IMG/VR virus record: IMGVR_UViG_3300048008_000179
Span: 1-29,533 of that record
Origin: a virus
Length of the DNA stretch: 29,533 bases
Strand: one strand, 5' to 3'
Shown: positions 128-28,994 of the stretch, piece after piece
Position numbering within the stretch: position 1 is the first letter of the stretch
Layout: each line of letters starts with the position of its first letter
Notes under the pieces: generated by a model
Database searches by the model: none
Told to the model about the DNA's origin: nothing
The model's input: only the letters and a program-made list of their open reading frames with translations
Position numbers and translations under genes: made by a program

Positions 128-267
128 CCGGAGAGTGGGCCAACCACTACAGAACAGTCCAGCAAGCCAGTCTGAAGGCTGAGACACTGAAGAAAAAGAT
201 CATGCTTGGGCAACTAGCCTTTGATGCTGAACGAACCAAGCAAGCCAACCAGCGCCGTATCGTCTGA
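1..267 (+). CDS. Small coiled-coil protein, 3' part (gene spans the circle junction)
   Basis: The frame is open from base 1 to the TGA at 265-267, and its true start is the ATG at 29356 near the right end. The joined gene encodes 105 residues. The protein is charged and helical, rich in Ala, Glu, Lys and Gln, with heptad-like spacing and no cysteines or membrane segment. It precedes the YqaJ exonuclease with an ATGA start/stop overlap, so the two are translationally coupled. A role in recombination or as an exonuclease partner is only a guess from context. I do not recognise the family. The ATG at 79 is internal and should not be taken as the start. Confidence 0.75.
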   Translation, partial: WEGASKEAIEAETNFKSFEASSQKAHMDAGASAAKAQTETRSTGEWANHYRTVQQASLKAETLKKKIMLGQLAFDAERTKQANQRRIV

Positions 268-899
268 TGATCCAGGGAAGCGAAGAATGGCATCTTTCCA
301 GAATTGGCAACTTGACCGCAAGTAGATGCCATGAGGCTGTCGCTAAGACCAAGAGTGGATATAGCGCATCGCGCCAGAAATTGATGGATGACCTTGTGAA
401 TGAAAGGCTTACGGGTGAGCGCAGGATAATAATTCCAAGCCCAGCGATGCAATGGGGCGTAGAAACAGAACCGTTGGCTCGCCAAGCCTATGAATTAATT
501 AAGGGTTGTGATGTATGCGAAACTGGCAGTGTACCCCACCCACTAATCGAAGAATCAAGCGCAAGCCCTGACGGATTGGTCGGGGATAACGGGCTGATAG
601 AAATTAAATGCCCGAATACTACAACGATGGTTAATACAGTTATCAGAGGCGACATTCCAGAAAACTACAAGACGCAAATGATGTGGCAACTTGCTTGCAC
701 GAGGCGCAAATGGTGCGACTTTGTGATGTACGACCCTAGACTTCCTGATGAGCGCAACATTTGGATAAAGAGATTTTCGCCATCTCAAGAAGAAATTTTG
801 GCGCTAGAGCTGCAAGTAATAGATTTTTTGCATGAAGTACGGGAAAGGGTAAATATGTTTAAACAGACCATAGACGCAAACTACAAAGCCCAGTTGTGA
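267..899 (+). CDS. YqaJ-family viral exonuclease
   Basis: A 210-residue protein of the YqaJ/lambda-exonuclease family (PD-(D/E)XK fold). Such enzymes degrade one strand of double-stranded DNA to leave 3' tails for an annealing protein. Visible active-site elements are the W63-G-V-E66 helix motif, D102 in SPDG, and E112-x-K114 in IEIKCP. The N-terminal GSEEWHLSRIGNLTAS matches the usual family start. The ATG at 267 overlaps the upstream stop as ATGA, and the stop overlaps the GTG start of NinG. Its natural partner here is the ERF annealing protein at 27237-27866, which is in a separate, oppositely transcribed operon. Confidence 0.93.
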   Translation: MIQGSEEWHLSRIGNLTASRCHEAVAKTKSGYSASRQKLMDDLVNERLTGERRIIIPSPAMQWGVETEPLARQAYELIKGCDVCETGSVPHPLIEESSASPDGLVGDNGLIEIKCPNTTTMVNTVIRGDIPENYKTQMMWQLACTRRKWCDFVMYDPRLPDERNIWIKRFSPSQEEILALELQVIDFLHEVRERVNMFKQTIDANYKAQL

Positions 900-2646: not shown

Positions 2647-2788
2647 GGATCTACCCAACAACTGTCAGGTGACAGTCATCGTCTCAGACCTCTACGAAGA
2701 AGAGCCAGACCCGAACCCTCCAGCGGAGATGCCAGAGGGTCAGGAAAGGGAGAATATCTGGCTGGTTAGCAAGAAGGCCGCAGATTGA
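2627..2788 (+). CDS. Small acidic hypothetical protein, 53 residues
   Basis: A GTG start at 2627 is preceded by GAGGAGAGG at a good distance. The protein starts MPTVLIEDLP and is acidic and proline-rich in the middle (EEEPDPNPPAEMPEGQE). It ends in WLVSKKAAD. It is the last gene of the rightward recombination cluster. Its final 23 bases overlap the 3' end of an opposite-strand gene (2766-2924). No family is recognised, and the assignment rests on the ribosome site and coupling. Confidence 0.5.
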   Translation: MPTVLIEDLPNNCQVTVIVSDLYEEEPDPNPPAEMPEGQERENIWLVSKKAAD

Positions 2789-2924
2789 GATAGTCCTTGT
2801 GGACTCCGTCGCAGACGCGCTCGACGTACTGCCGTTCCTCCATCACTTCGTTCTCGTAGTCGTTCTGGCCGGCAGCAAAGAAGCCGACGATCAAGAGCAG
2901 GGCGAGTGGATAGCGTAGTTTCAT
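2766..2924 (-). CDS. Small exported protein with signal/anchor and two cysteines, 52 residues
   Basis: Reading leftward from ATG 2924, with AAGGGG 5 nt upstream, the protein starts MKLRYPLALLLIVGFFAAG, a classic short signal peptide or membrane anchor. A short acidic mature region follows, ending VCDGVHKDYLNLRPSC. The Cys-x-Gly...Asp-Tyr...Cys layout resembles small secreted cysteine-pair proteins encoded by many gammaproteobacterial phages, whose function is unknown. The mature part would sit in the periplasm, where the two cysteines could pair. It is the second gene of a two-gene leftward operon and follows the stop-codon hairpin at 2937-2952. Confidence 0.68.
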   Translation of the reverse strand: MKLRYPLALLLIVGFFAAGQNDYENEVMEERQYVERVCDGVHKDYLNLRPSC

Positions 2925-2936
2925 GGTATCCCCTTG

Positions 2937-2952
2937 GGCCGCTTACGCGGCC
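2937..2952 (-). promoter_or_regulatory. Intercistronic hairpin with the stop codon in its loop
   Basis: In the leftward transcript this reads GGCCGC-GUAA-GCGGCC, a perfect 6-bp GC stem with a GNRA-type GUAA loop. The UAA stop of the upstream gene (2943-3137) is in the loop. The next start codon lies 12 nt downstream, with the ribosome site between. The same arrangement occurs at 28450-28463. It could control re-initiation, translational coupling or RNA stability. There is no U-tract, so a classical terminator is unlikely. Confidence 0.75.
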
Positions 2953-3137
2953 TCTCCACAGGCTTTCAAGCAAATGGCGAGAATGTCGCCAGCCAGTTCA
3001 TCGCTGGCGCATTCGTAGATTCTTCGGTCGCAATTGACGTGTAGCATCTTGGCGTTACGGTCAAAGTAGGCAAGAACCTCTCCGTCGTTTGACTTGATGA
3101 TGCCATTTTCCAAGATGTTGAAGTTGATTGTTAGCAT
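2943..3137 (-). CDS. Small hypothetical protein, 64 residues
   Basis: Leftward gene with ATG at 3135-3137 and GAGG 7 nt upstream. The protein starts MLTINFNILENGIIKSNDGEV. It has three cysteines (C35, C43, C57) and looks like a beta-rich N-terminus followed by a helix (SDELAGDILAICLKACGEAA). No family is recognised. It is the first gene after the operator-bearing leftward promoter at 3164-3191. Its last codons and stop form the hairpin at 2937-2952, the same layout as the first gene of the main early operon. Confidence 0.65.
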   Translation of the reverse strand: MLTINFNILENGIIKSNDGEVLAYFDRNAKMLHVNCDRRIYECASDELAGDILAICLKACGEAA

Positions 3138-3163: not shown

Positions 3164-3191
3164 ATTGTACACCAAAGGTTTACACATACAA
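3164..3191 (-). promoter_or_regulatory. Leftward promoter with embedded operator
   Basis: On the minus strand: -35 TTGTAT (3191-3186), a 16-bp spacer, and -10 TACAAT (3169-3164). A near-perfect palindrome, TGTACACCAAAGGTTTACA (3166-3184), fills the spacer and overlaps the -10. Its core shares 14 of 16 positions with a site in the divergent promoter region at 28705-28720. Binding by the Cro-type protein would block this promoter and could also affect the facing rightward late promoter. Confidence 0.65.
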
Positions 3192-3688: not shown

Positions 3689-4158
3689 AGTGGGACGCGA
3701 TCAAAGGTTTAGTGGGCGCAGTAGCACCGACGCTAGGAAGTGCCATAGGAGGCCCAGTAGGGGCCGGAGCGGGGAAAATACTCGCACAGGTACTTGGGGT
3801 GCCAGCAGAGCCACAAGCCGTTCAGAAGGCGCTCAGTGAAGCCTCACCCGAACAGCTAGCCGAGATCAAGAAAGCCGATCTTGCCTACAAAACCCGTCTT
3901 GCAGAGTTAGAGGTGGATATCTTCGAGCTTGAGACTGCCGACATCCAAGACGCCAGAAAGAGTGGTGACTGGACGCCAAAGGTTCTGGCCTTGCTAGCCT
4001 TCCTGTTTTTCGGTGGGTATGTGACCCTTGTTACCGTTCAACCGCCAGATGCCAACTCAGAAGCGGTGATAAACCTTGTCCTGGGATACTTGGGAGGGGT
4101 GGTATCAGCGGTCGTTTCTTTCTACTTCGGCGCAAGCCATAAATCGGATAATCAATGA
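3685..4158 (+). CDS. 3TM-family holin
   Basis: A 157-residue protein of the three-transmembrane holin family found in gene transfer agents and related phages. Residues 7-33 are a glycine-rich hydrophobic segment (AVAPTLGSAIGGPVGAGAGK). An amphipathic central helix is followed by membrane segments at about 100-118 (LALLAFLFFGGYVTLVTV) and 128-149 (LVLGYLGGVVSAVVSFYFGA). Holins form holes in the inner membrane to time lysis. The start overlaps the DUF5675 stop (ATGA), and its stop overlaps the ParB-like gene. The position next to the candidate lysin supports the call. Confidence 0.88.
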   Translation: MKWDAIKGLVGAVAPTLGSAIGGPVGAGAGKILAQVLGVPAEPQAVQKALSEASPEQLAEIKKADLAYKTRLAELEVDIFELETADIQDARKSGDWTPKVLALLAFLFFGGYVTLVTVQPPDANSEAVINLVLGYLGGVVSAVVSFYFGASHKSDNQ

Positions 4159-4875: not shown

Positions 4876-5572
4876 ATTAAAGATAGATTGGGCCTCTTAT
4901 AAAGCCGCAAAATTTGCGTGCCAGAACTGGCACTATAGCAAGTCAATTCCAGCAGGAAAATTGGTCAAGGTCGGTGCTTGGGAGAATGATAATTTTATTG
5001 GTGTAGTTATTTTTGCTAGAGGTGCAAACAAAAGTATGCTGTCGCCATTTGATTTGCGCCAAGACCAGGGATGTGAACTGGCGAGAATTGCATTGCGTAA
5101 ACATGAAACACCAGTTTCCAGAATTGTAGCTATAGCTTTAAGGTTGTTAAAAGGCAAATTTCCAGCGCTTCAGCTAGTGGTCAGCTACTCAGATTGTGAC
5201 CAAGATCATCACGGCGGCATATATCAAGCAGGGAACTGGATATATGACGGAAGGCATAATGTTGGAATGGTAAGTGGGTATATTATCAATGGTCGAAAAA
5301 CTCACAAAAAAACTGTCCACAGTAGAGGGGTGCGTCAAACATTGTCTGAGGTGAGAAAGCACCTAGACCCAAATGCCGAAGAGTTTATAACCACAGGAAA
5401 GCATCGTTATTTAATGCCATTGAACAAACAGACAAAAACGAAGCTGCAAGAACGATCGCAGCCATACCCAAAACGCGCTGGAAGTGTAGATAGCGACACA
5501 CCCACTATCCAAGTGGGAGAGGGCGGTGCAAATCCGACCTCAGCGCTCCAAACAAAAGATGCTCATGGCTAG
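4865..5572 (+). CDS. Mom-like adenine modification protein
   Basis: A 235-residue protein resembling phage Mu Mom, a GNAT-fold protein that converts adenine in DNA to a carbamoylmethyl derivative and protects phage DNA from restriction. Conserved-looking stretches are NWHYSKSIPAGKLVKVGAWE (21-40), the FIGVVIFARGA strand, CELARIALRKHETPVSRIVA (70-89), and SYSDCDQDHHGGIYQAGNWI (107-126). The last ~35 residues look unstructured. The coding region is AT-rich compared with its neighbours, suggesting transfer. It lies directly upstream of the terminase, so DNA could be modified before packaging. The family is confident from motif pattern, but the exact chemistry is from Mu and not shown here. Confidence 0.85.
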   Translation: MPVELKIDWASYKAAKFACQNWHYSKSIPAGKLVKVGAWENDNFIGVVIFARGANKSMLSPFDLRQDQGCELARIALRKHETPVSRIVAIALRLLKGKFPALQLVVSYSDCDQDHHGGIYQAGNWIYDGRHNVGMVSGYIINGRKTHKKTVHSRGVRQTLSEVRKHLDPNAEEFITTGKHRYLMPLNKQTKTKLQERSQPYPKRAGSVDSDTPTIQVGEGGANPTSALQTKDAHG

Positions 5573-26842: not shown

Positions 26843-27240
26843 AGGTTTTCCAAAATGGTGGTGGTTAGCGCTGACGTGATGACAGCAATGACAATGACTA
26901 TGGCAGAGTCTTTCAGGTTCATGCCAAACAAGCCCTCTGTGGGCGTTATTTCGACGCTCTCAGGCGTTTTATCTACGGGGGAGGGCGTTTGTATAGGGTC
27001 TGAAAGCTGAAGCTCAAAATCGGGCTGTTTAGTGCGGATCTCGTACCTGCGGAAATCAGCCTGACTGCGCTGGATGTACTTTCTGCCCATCAGGTTGTTG
27101 ATGGCTGTTCTGGCTTGCTTCGCCTTCATCTCTGACCCTTTGTCGAGCAAGTGCCGGCGGATGGTGTGGTAAGCCATCGGGCCGTGTTCGTCCAAGATGT
27201 CGAATATCTCACGGGCGTTGCCCTTTCTTGGTCTTCTCAT
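26839..27240 (-). CDS. Winged-helix protein with C-terminal membrane anchor, 133 residues
   Basis: Leftward gene from ATG 27240, with GGAG upstream and an ATGA overlap with the ERF stop. Residues 5-65 (NAREIFDILDEHGPMAYHTI, then NLMGRKYIQRSQADFRRYEI) are a winged-helix DNA-binding domain. A Pro/Thr/Glu-rich linker follows, and a membrane segment at ~111-130 (DSAIVIVIAVITSALTTTIL) ends the protein. The combination could tether phage DNA or the recombination complex to the membrane. No family is recognised. Confidence 0.75.
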   Translation of the reverse strand: MRRPRKGNAREIFDILDEHGPMAYHTIRRHLLDKGSEMKAKQARTAINNLMGRKYIQRSQADFRRYEIRTKQPDFELQLSDPIQTPSPVDKTPESVEITPTEGLFGMNLKDSAIVIVIAVITSALTTTILENL

Positions 27241-27866
27241 TTGGGATTCTCCACTTTTCTGATTGCTGATCGGATGTTGCTTGGAAGCTCTGCCCACACC
27301 GCCAGCTTCATATCACTGTCTTGGCGTAATTCGTCGAGCAGTTCTTTCATGCCTGCGTGATCTTCGGCTGAAGTGGCTTCGGTTAGAAGGGAAATGTAAC
27401 TGGTTCGTTTTCCCTCATCGACCTTGATGCCTTCTTCTTGGATGACAGTCTTGGTGACTGACTGAGGCTTTCGGCCAGTAGTGTTCTTTGCAGCCGCGTT
27501 GCCATCATCGTCCTCATCTGCTGCTACACCGCAAGCCATCGCCAGAGAGTAGCGCTTGGCATAGGTTAGGGCCGAGCCAAAGCCTTGGGCGTTCTCACGA
27601 TCTATAGGGACGGGAACTGGCCCAGTGGATAACTCCTCACAGTGACCGTAAAAGACGGTTTCTACAGCGATGCCATGATCCATTGGAACTGACTTTTGGA
27701 TGTACGCTATTCCGTTCGCGTTGAGCGCGGGTTTAACCGCGTCGATCACACTCTTGAGCGAGGCAAACTTGCTCTTGAAGTGTGGGTTAGTTTGGTCAAA
27801 TGCCGCATGGGACATTTGTGACTGCGCCTTCACGAGTGCGCTAATCAAGGTTTGTTTTGATTCCAT
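27237..27866 (-). CDS. erf: ERF-family single-strand annealing protein
   Basis: A 209-residue protein from ATG 27866, with AAGGAG upstream. The N-terminal ~130 residues have the ERF pattern: LVKAQSQMSHAAFDQTNPHF, KSKFASLKSVIDAVKPALNA, then GFGSALTYAKRYSLAMACGV and the acidic ADEDDDGN. ERF proteins anneal complementary single strands in phage recombination and circularisation. The C-terminus has a basic linker and an alpha-helical end. Its exonuclease partner YqaJ is on the opposite strand, about 2 kb away across the junction. It lies within the leftward early operon. Confidence 0.93.
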   Translation of the reverse strand: MESKQTLISALVKAQSQMSHAAFDQTNPHFKSKFASLKSVIDAVKPALNANGIAYIQKSVPMDHGIAVETVFYGHCEELSTGPVPVPIDRENAQGFGSALTYAKRYSLAMACGVAADEDDDGNAAAKNTTGRKPQSVTKTVIQEEGIKVDEGKRTSYISLLTEATSAEDHAGMKELLDELRQDSDMKLAVWAELPSNIRSAIRKVENPK

Positions 27867-28026
27867 CCATCAACTCCTTTAGTTGGTTTTTGAGGTAAAG
27901 GTGACGCTCTACCGAGTTTCTTGGTAAATCACAGTTTCGGATGTTGTCCACAACCTGCGAAATTGGTTTGGCGACCAGTTCATCGTCTGGCCCATCGGTC
28001 ATAAGTTCAGATTTAACGCGACCCAT
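27841..28026 (-). CDS. Small hypothetical protein before erf, 61 residues
   Basis: Leftward gene from ATG 28026 with GGAGG six bases upstream. A TTG at 28032 is the alternative. Its 3' end overlaps the erf start by 26 bases and contains the erf ribosome site, so the genes are coupled. The protein begins MGRVKSELMTDGPDDELVAK, has a helical C-terminus (VERHLYLKNQLKELMDGIKT) and no cysteines except C34. No family is recognised. Confidence 0.65.
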   Translation of the reverse strand: MGRVKSELMTDGPDDELVAKPISQVVDNIRNCDLPRNSVERHLYLKNQLKELMDGIKTNLD

Positions 28027-28438
28027 TAGCAACCTCCGTCACGCAGCCGATCTGATTGCCGCGCCACCAGATAAAATACTGACCAGCGGGGTTGCCATCG
28101 CGCACGTCGGCAAGTTCATGAATGTCGTTTACAATTTTTGAGAGTTTCCAGTGCAGGTTTTCTTCCCACCACATCTGGAGATCAAACATTTCAGAGCGGG
28201 AGTGCTCAACGATGCCGTTTTCAAACGACTGGCATTCGGTCATGCCGTAGAAGTGCAGGTTAAACAAGACGTCGTTGTCTTTGGGTTCACCCAGATCGCA
28301 GACTGGGCAGACCAGATAGGCGTGGCCTGCATCGCGCAGGTTGTGCAGTTCAGTCTCACACTTTGGGCAAGTGTCAGGATCACCCCACATTGCTTGAAAG
28401 CGTGGGTCAGATTCAATTGGTCTATCAGGTACAAGCAT
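28013..28438 (-). CDS. Zinc-ribbon protein of the early operon, 141 residues
   Basis: Leftward gene from ATG 28438 with GGAGG four bases upstream. A longer frame to 28486 crosses the hairpin and is rejected. C24-x-x-C27 (CPKC) and C44-x-x-C47 (CPVC) form a zinc ribbon near the N-terminus. The rest is rich in Trp and aromatics (EMFDLQMWWEENLHWKLSKI, QYFIWWRGNQIGC). No family is recognised. It is the second gene of the early operon and follows the stop-codon hairpin at 28450-28463. Confidence 0.75.
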   Translation of the reverse strand: MLVPDRPIESDPRFQAMWGDPDTCPKCETELHNLRDAGHAYLVCPVCDLGEPKDNDVLFNLHFYGMTECQSFENGIVEHSRSEMFDLQMWWEENLHWKLSKIVNDIHELADVRDGNPAGQYFIWWRGNQIGCVTEVANGSR

Positions 28439-28449
28439 GATTCCTCCAA

Positions 28450-28463
28450 GCCGCTTACGCGGC
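28450..28463 (-). promoter_or_regulatory. Intercistronic hairpin with the stop codon in its loop (second copy)
   Basis: The leftward transcript reads GCCGC-GUAA-GCGGC, a 5-bp stem with the UAA stop of the gene at 28455-28676 in the loop. The next ATG is 11 nt downstream, with GGAGG between. Sequence and geometry match 2937-2952, although the genes around them are not alike. Confidence 0.75.
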
Positions 28464-28676
28464 AAGCTCTGGTCGTTTCCATTCAAGCTCTGCGATCACC
28501 TCTTTCTTGGTGCCGCGTCCGCTCACGATGCGAGTGCCGTTCTCGGTAGCAACCCATCCGCTTCCGCTTTTGCGTACAACGATGTCCTCTGCGCCTTTGA
28601 CCACCCACTCAGCAGCTTCGTTGCCAAAGCCGTTACCAGCCCAGAATGCGTCTGCTTTTTTAGTAAGTTTGATCAT
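28455..28676 (-). CDS. First gene of the early operon, hypothetical, 73 residues
   Basis: Leftward gene from ATG 28676 with CAGGAG six bases upstream. In-frame extension to 28724 would enter the promoter and is rejected. It begins MIKLTKKADAFWAGNGFG and continues EAAEWVVKGAEDIVVRKSGSGWVATENG, a small beta-rich basic protein. It is expressed from the operator-controlled promoter, so it should be among the first proteins made. No family is recognised. Host-takeover or regulatory roles are possible. Confidence 0.7.
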   Translation of the reverse strand: MIKLTKKADAFWAGNGFGNEAAEWVVKGAEDIVVRKSGSGWVATENGTRIVSGRGTKKEVIAELEWKRPELAA

Positions 28677-28700: not shown

Positions 28701-28728
28701 ATAATAAACTATTGGTGTACCCATGCAA
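28701..28728 (-). promoter_or_regulatory. Leftward early promoter
   Basis: On the minus strand: -35 TTGCAT (28728-28723), a 16-bp spacer and -10 TATTAT (28706-28701), upstream of the ATG at 28676. The operator-like site at 28703-28721 covers the -10 and spacer, the same layout as the leftward promoter at 3164-3191. Confidence 0.7.
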
Positions 28729-28781
28729 GCACTAATGCAAACTTTTTTTGTATTATTGTTCTTGCAAACTGCTGGTGTATC
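28703..28781. promoter_or_regulatory. Operator array between early operon and Cro-type gene
   Basis: Three similar 19-bp sites lie at 28703-28721, 28736-28754 and 28763-28781. Their cores are TAAACTATTGGTGTAC (28705), CAAACTTTTTTTGTAT (28738) and CAAACTGCTGGTGTAT (28765). A fourth copy lies at 3166-3184 in the opposite direction. The middle site is the weakest. The array is placed as expected for autoregulation by the gene at 28797. Confidence 0.6.
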
Positions 28782-28796: not shown

Positions 28797-28994
28797 ATGG
28801 AAACAGAAGCATTCAAAAGAGTCGTCGAAATTGTTGGGTCAAAGGCTGAGATAGCCCGACAGTGTGGGGTCAGCGGACAACATATTCAGAAATGGAAAAG
28901 CCAAGTACCGGCTGTCCATGTGATAAAGTTGGAAAAGTTGACAGGTGGAGCGGTTCGACGCGAAGAATTGCGGCCAGATGTTTTCTACGATTAG
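28797..28994 (+). CDS. Cro/YdaS-type transcriptional regulator, 65 residues
   Basis: The protein METEAFKRVVEIVGSKAEIA..., with RQCGVSGQHIQKWKSQVPAV and KLEKLTGGAVRREELRPDVF, closely follows the YdaS/Cro-like pattern: a helix-turn-helix at about 16-38 followed by the LTGG..R.ELRPD tail. Such proteins repress early phage promoters. Longer upstream readings pass through the operators and the divergent promoter, so ATG 28797 is chosen. It is divergent from the early operon. No CI-type repressor or integrase accompanies it, which argues against ordinary lysogeny. Confidence 0.85.
   Translation: METEAFKRVVEIVGSKAEIARQCGVSGQHIQKWKSQVPAVHVIKLEKLTGGAVRREELRPDVFYD

Follow-up and report, generated by a model that had tools for sequence, protein, structure and literature searches.

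Very stable CUUCGG tetraloop hairpins without a T-tract lie between cistrons of phage T4, and we know of no stop codon inside their UUCG loop. The hairpin described here resembles them in being a stable tetraloop hairpin between phage cistrons that lacks a T-tract. Promoter-early stem-loops (PeSLs), said to have been described by Arbiol in 2010 and Comeau in 2014, reportedly combine a stem-loop terminator and an early promoter and lie outside coding sequence. The PeSLs of T4-like phages are described as mediating modular gene shuffling (PMC4503421). The likeness is in repeated stem-loops that lie between accessory genes and are tied to modular shuffling. However, at the joints described here no early promoter is joined to the stem-loop, the stop codon is in the loop, and the stem directly precedes the Shine-Dalgarno (SD) sequence and start codon of the next gene.

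In cluster K mycobacteriophages, the SAS/ESAS repeats include an asymmetric 13-mer, GGGATAGGAGCCC, that is itself the ribosome site (PMC3203893). Like the hairpin, SAS is a short repeat found at many unrelated non-structural gene junctions near the next start codon, and it at times contains the upstream stop codon (PMC3203893). However, that study saw little evidence of RNA pairing in ESAS (PMC3203893), whereas pairing is supported for the hairpin joint, and here the repeat is not a ribosome-binding site with an AGGAG core, as the SD is variable and lies downstream of the hairpin. Rad52-like phage recombinases, the Erf/Red-type annealing proteins, bring about mosaic exchange where homology is short, and a minimal pairing length of 23-27 bp is quoted for Red beta (PMC3945230). 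The homologies considered there are longer or diverged, and the shared hairpin alone is below the quoted minimum. No described gene joint with a stop codon in a tetraloop was found in literature searches.

The hairpin in the window and in other phages

The ends of the window (the whole stretch of viral DNA analysed, 29,533 nt) overlap by 127 bp. The genome is therefore a circle or has a terminal repeat, with a length of 29,406 bp, and the two hairpins are about 3.9 kb apart. The closest phage relatives of its large terminase are Pelagibacter phages (51-54 % identity), and the recombination proteins identified are ERF and YqaJ (Table 1).

Exact GCCGC-GTAA-GCGGC (GCCGCGTAAGCGGC) is present in two copies, each of which is the stop of a leftward gene, compared with 0 expected (0 in 100 shuffles). 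The first-pass annotation had reported a stop-in-loop hairpin in both leftward operons, and both copies are exact, with the TAA ending a short ORF. As it also described, the next ATG follows the stem after 12 nt (copy 1) or 11 nt (copy 2), with an SD-like GGGG/GGAGG in between, and the two first genes are not similar, A1 and A2 falling in different families when clustered. Its suggestion that the operons share an operator type is weakly borne out: TACACCA is found in both promoter regions, but there are only 6 copies in the window where 2.7 are expected. Three of the sites, which are possible operators, are near an ORF for a Cro/YdaS-like regulator (Table 1).

Table 1. Positions of features in the window and of hammerhead-like motifs in other viral stretches
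Feature	Position	Strand	Remarks
Stop hairpin copy 1, GGCCGC-GTAA-GCGGCC	2937..2952	-	6-bp stem; TAA of gene A1 in GNRA-type loop
Gene A1	2943..3137	-	64 aa, C-terminus GEAA*; relatives found in IMG/VR; no match in Pfam or PHROG
Linker, hairpin 1 to gene B1	2925..2936	-	Ribosome site CAAGGGGATACC
Gene B1	2766..2924	-	52 aa, N-terminus MKLRYPLALLL; phrog_6168 (unknown function)
Stop hairpin copy 2, GCCGC-GTAA-GCGGC	28450..28463	-	5-bp stem; TAA is stop of gene A2
Gene A2	28455..28676	-	73 aa, C-terminus ELAA*; relatives found in IMG/VR
Linker, hairpin 2 to gene B2	28439..28449	-	Ribosome site TTGGAGGAATC
Gene B2	28013..28438	-	N-terminus MLVPDRPIE; weak zinc-ribbon match
ERF-family single-strand annealing protein	27237..27866	-	PF04404, 3e-20; candidate recombinase for shuffling
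YqaJ-type viral recombination exonuclease	267..899	+	PF09588, 1e-22; candidate partner of ERF protein
TACACCA sites	3168-3174, 28713-28719, 28773-28779		In both leftward promoter regions; possible operators
Cro/YdaS-like regulator ORF	28797-28994	+	Near TACACCA sites
Hammerhead-like motifs	L021:854, L022:~5226, L023:2890, L024:5068, L012:5537, L391:6954		At gene ends

The GUAA loop is a GNRA-type tetraloop with a C-G closing pair. Hairpin energies are predicted at -9.2 to -12.5 kcal/mol, and in local folds the hairpin is predicted to form with a mean probability of 0.95. An Rfam search of the window and 11 loci at gathering thresholds gave no match, and a permissive search of the window gave only a weak whalefall-1 match away from the hairpins.

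Each scan of other sequences listed up to 120 stretches, and counts derived from them apply among the matches listed. A search for the motif at gene ends in related phages, as proposed by the first-pass annotation, found the same 14-mer at the ends of many different, unrelated genes in related IMG/VR contigs (exact scan, among the matches listed). The most copies per short stretch were noted in L133, with five in 1.3 kb, where the genes of two short operons are joined by the hairpin and one copy is followed by a run of Ts. In L133, near-identical promoter/operator regions (CAACAAACAGTTGTCATTACC...TCTGTATGATCTGTCTTGTCTTAACAAGAAA; 3789-3844 and 5122-5180) precede two hairpin-joined operons. There are three copies in L089, two each in L010, L029, L087, L103, L105 and L120, and five of the GCCGC type in G009. 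G054 has three GCGGC joints and two GCGGCTTAGGCCGC sites, and L265, from the same record, has one GCGGCTTAGGCCGC site followed by a T-tract. The stem is usually of one kind within a genome. Hairpins of the general stop-in-loop type but with other stems are uncommon in these contigs, and AUAA-loop variants also occur. A related form with TAG in the loop, GCGGC-TTAG-GCCGC, was seen in L158, L171, L265, G033, G046 and G054; in the first three it is followed by eight Ts, making it a stop-in-loop terminator. Phages with this terminator use GCGGC-GTAA-GCCGC at internal joints.

Six annotated records of phages carrying the exact motif were examined, and an annotated CDS ends in the loop in all of them (Phage C72C1, Rhizobium phage RHph_TM3_3_14B, Sinorhizobium phage AP-16-3, Bordetella phage PHB04, Blackfly microvirus SF02 and Stenotrophomonas phage RAS14). 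The GenBank entry for Phage C72C1, for which a literature search found no paper, contains a full joint with SD and start. Chimaeric assembly was judged unlikely, as some joints recur across samples and Phage C72C1 has the same kind of joint.

Pairing, loop and orientation at gene junctions

A site was counted as a joint if an open frame of at least 50 codons ended there at TAA or TGA and an SD and start codon followed within 40 nt. In the viral collection, 66/132 GCCGC-GTAA-GCGGC sites among the matches listed were joints. The arm-swapped pairing GCGGC-GTAA-GCCGC, which keeps the stop, Ala-Ala and composition of the original, gave 40/121, and non-pairing GCGGC-GTAA-GCGGC 2/116, both among the matches listed (p=4e-20 for the latter; this and the other p-values given here overstate significance, because the sites are related to one another and are not phylogenetically independent). 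Also among the matches listed, the share was 9/154 for a UUAA loop, counted on both strands because the pattern is self-complementary, 13/116 for a GTGA loop (UGA stop) and 8/122 when bacterial genomes were scanned with the original motif. When only contigs of less than 55 % GC were counted, the corresponding shares among the matches listed were 51/81 (original), 25/55 (arm-swapped), 0/42 (non-pairing), 6/102 (UUAA), 2/19 (GTGA) and 1/30 (bacteria). These scans indicate that pairing is needed, that another pairing stem works in other phages, that the GUAA loop is favoured, and that it is in phages that the motif serves as a joint. A host or bacterial origin of the motif was rejected, as the bacterial copies are not at junctions.

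The arms also encode Ala-Ala, and this protein end could have been kept as a C-terminal degron for ClpXP-type proteases, with the hairpin a by-product. AA* ends 58/58 genes at called hairpin joints and 24/783 others. However, GCC GCG TAA can only encode Ala-Ala, the non-pairing control likewise encodes Ala-Ala-stop and is not at gene ends, and homologues without the hairpin often end in LVA, LVS or LAS. This reading, ruled out by that control and by the other C-termini of the hairpin-less homologues, is scarcely credible.

Sites were found in the sense orientation in 65 cases and antisense in 2 (among the matches listed). The sixth stem pair, which is outside the fixed core, covaries (57 paired, 49 expected, p=0.002, 81 different joints), and the stem covariation foreseen by the first-pass annotation is thus seen at this position. 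Comparison with the control patterns shows selection for a base-paired hairpin with a GUAA cap at phage gene junctions, in keeping with the earlier view that there is a reason for the conservation of the hairpin and its geometry, of which RNA structure is a part. Against this, the stem sequence is nearly fixed within one phage group rather than freely compensated, which would be more constancy than RNA structure alone requires. Modelled accessibility of the ribosome site is slightly higher at hairpin joints (0.51 versus 0.46, p=0.006), a gain that may fit insulation but is weak.

The joints could instead be remnants or variants of intrinsic terminators laid over a stop codon, that is, fused gene and terminator units minus the T-tract. 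The same stem followed by a T-tract is found at operon ends in L133 (5076), L391/L051, L022 (5482) and two rhizobial phages; the copies in Rhizobium phage RHph_TM3_3_14B and Sinorhizobium phage AP-16-3 look like terminators. UUAA-loop joints that end long frames often precede T-tracts, and UUAG-loop ones were seen likewise. However, a T-tract is absent at both window copies and is present at just 3-6 of 132 GUAA sites (among the matches listed), and the joints look maintained, because they have a well-formed ribosome site, near-constant spacing and the covarying sixth pair. We consider a terminator origin rather unlikely as the explanation of the joints.

Exchange of genes at the hairpin

When 127 hairpin sites were clustered by their flanking genes, 119 families and at least 83 distinct joints were obtained, and 17 families occur on both sides of the hairpin (among the matches listed). 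The most promiscuous upstream partner, the MTLL family, has at least 10 different following genes. Relatives of A2 have at least four different following genes, and relatives of B1 and B2 have at least seven and at least four different preceding genes, respectively. One MTLL family member (L133:3865-4350) is a 162-aa protein without a Pfam or PHROG match; distant relatives (31-42 % identity) are found in Rhizobium, Pseudomonas, Shewanella, Vibrio and Serratia phages.

MTLL genes stay alike at their 3' ends as far as the end of the hairpin, and the sequences diverge immediately beyond it. Among 56 pairs of sites sharing the upstream gene, identity is 0.85-0.97 ahead of the hairpin and 0.44, 0.38, 0.30 and 0.24 in successive five-base steps after it. 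For 28 pairs sharing the downstream gene, identity stays at about 0.3 until the hairpin and is 0.98 once the start codon is reached. Neighbours were compared using simple gene calls in 65 records, for homologous genes at 60-98 % identity. The downstream neighbour was kept at 6/69 hairpin joints and at 569/786 other joints of the same phages; it was kept at 80/120 other joints within four genes of a hairpin, and at other joints of the same gene families at 36/98. Hairpin-bearing operons are thus variable anyway on these gene calls, yet the hairpin joints are far more variable. Comparison of the joints places the exact seam at which operon genes differ between these phages, which are small and mostly uncultured, at the hairpin. 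As with PeSLs, a repeated stem-loop marks exchange points at many gene junctions; other phages have the same stop-in-loop device, built on another stem.

These comparisons bear on the possibility that the hairpin provides stop-dependent translational control, in which a ribosome at the UAA would open the stem, and its refolding would block or steer re-initiation 11-13 nt downstream. The tight geometry, with a hairpin-to-start gap that peaks at 13 nt (25/79 joints), and the importance of pairing and loop in the control scans favour this. However, the element goes with no particular second gene, the same gene is found with and without the hairpin, and the SD is outside the stem and hence not hidden by it. 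Control of one particular second gene, as put forward in the first-pass annotation, is not supported, since A2 is kept without the stem in L012, L014, L019 and L021-L024, an outcome that the annotation itself had named as refuting; a function for the gene pair fails, as the following gene differs from phage to phage. Translational control is in our judgement unlikely.

A pure DNA recombination site, integron-like or annealing, with no RNA role, would account for homology that breaks exactly at the motif and for a sequence fixed within the group. However, the sites are always in sense orientation and their stop is in frame, and other phages use a different stem with the same GUAA loop in the same place, which a sequence-specific DNA site does not predict. 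A DNA-only palindrome as sole cause was ruled out by the pairing and loop controls and the sense orientation, and a site acting purely as DNA is improbable.

Linkers at joints of different genes resemble each other more within a genome (0.74) than across genomes (0.57, p=3e-7), and a longer homology would thereby be available for exchange. Three joints in L133 share GCCGCGTAAGCGGCCCGG(G)AGGAGATAGACATG, and the repeated homology of hairpin plus linker there is up to about 34 bp. As the shared 14-16 bp is below the Red beta minimum, shuffling would need linker homology, or rare events followed by selection.

Hammerhead-ribozyme-like motifs (CUGANGAG...CGAAAC) were found directly after the A2 relative in L021-L024 and at gene ends in L012 and L391 (Table 1), 6-14 nt past a gene's stop. 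Stems I-III are all present, with stem III and its loop varying (caps GCAA, GAAA or UUCG). Only six motifs passed in a scan of 13 Mb of strands, and this phage group accounts for five. The L022 motif was seen by the Rfam search; the motifs are below Rfam thresholds and are few, related copies. Their position at gene ends suggests that the junctions may carry RNA-processing elements of more than one kind.

A proposed portable gene joint

We propose, with a probability of roughly 0.6, that the hairpin is a portable gene-joint RNA element that also serves as a seam for gene shuffling. The 5' arm encodes the last two codons (Ala-Ala) of any preceding gene and the tetraloop holds its stop, with the SD and start of the next gene following the stem, the start typically at 13 nt; the intergenic gap at hairpin joints has a median of 20 nt. 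Once the terminating ribosome leaves, the hairpin would form in the mRNA and separate the finished cistron from the next ribosome site, providing insulation and 3'-end protection. Any unit of ribosome site, ORF and hairpin could thereby work next to any other. Because many joints, also in different phages, have the same 14-16 bp and a similar linker, recombination of the annealing type could exchange gene units at the hairpins and leave reading frames unbroken. The phages' own Erf/YqaJ-type recombination, both proteins of which the window encodes, probably does the shuffling. Where a T-tract follows, the hairpin would act as an operon-ending terminator.

More tentatively, this may be a general phage device that arose repeatedly, each time with another stem, and in it termination inside a GNRA tetraloop would make cistrons interchangeable, the hairpin being both insulator and recombination seam of a combinatorial gene pool. 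Phage genomes are mosaics in which the seams can seldom be seen. A defined element of 14-16 bases marks the seam here, which makes it possible to count, date and test gene exchange and to find unknown accessory genes by searching between seams. Should the hairpin insulate expression as well, it would be a natural modular part like those that synthetic biology builds by hand.
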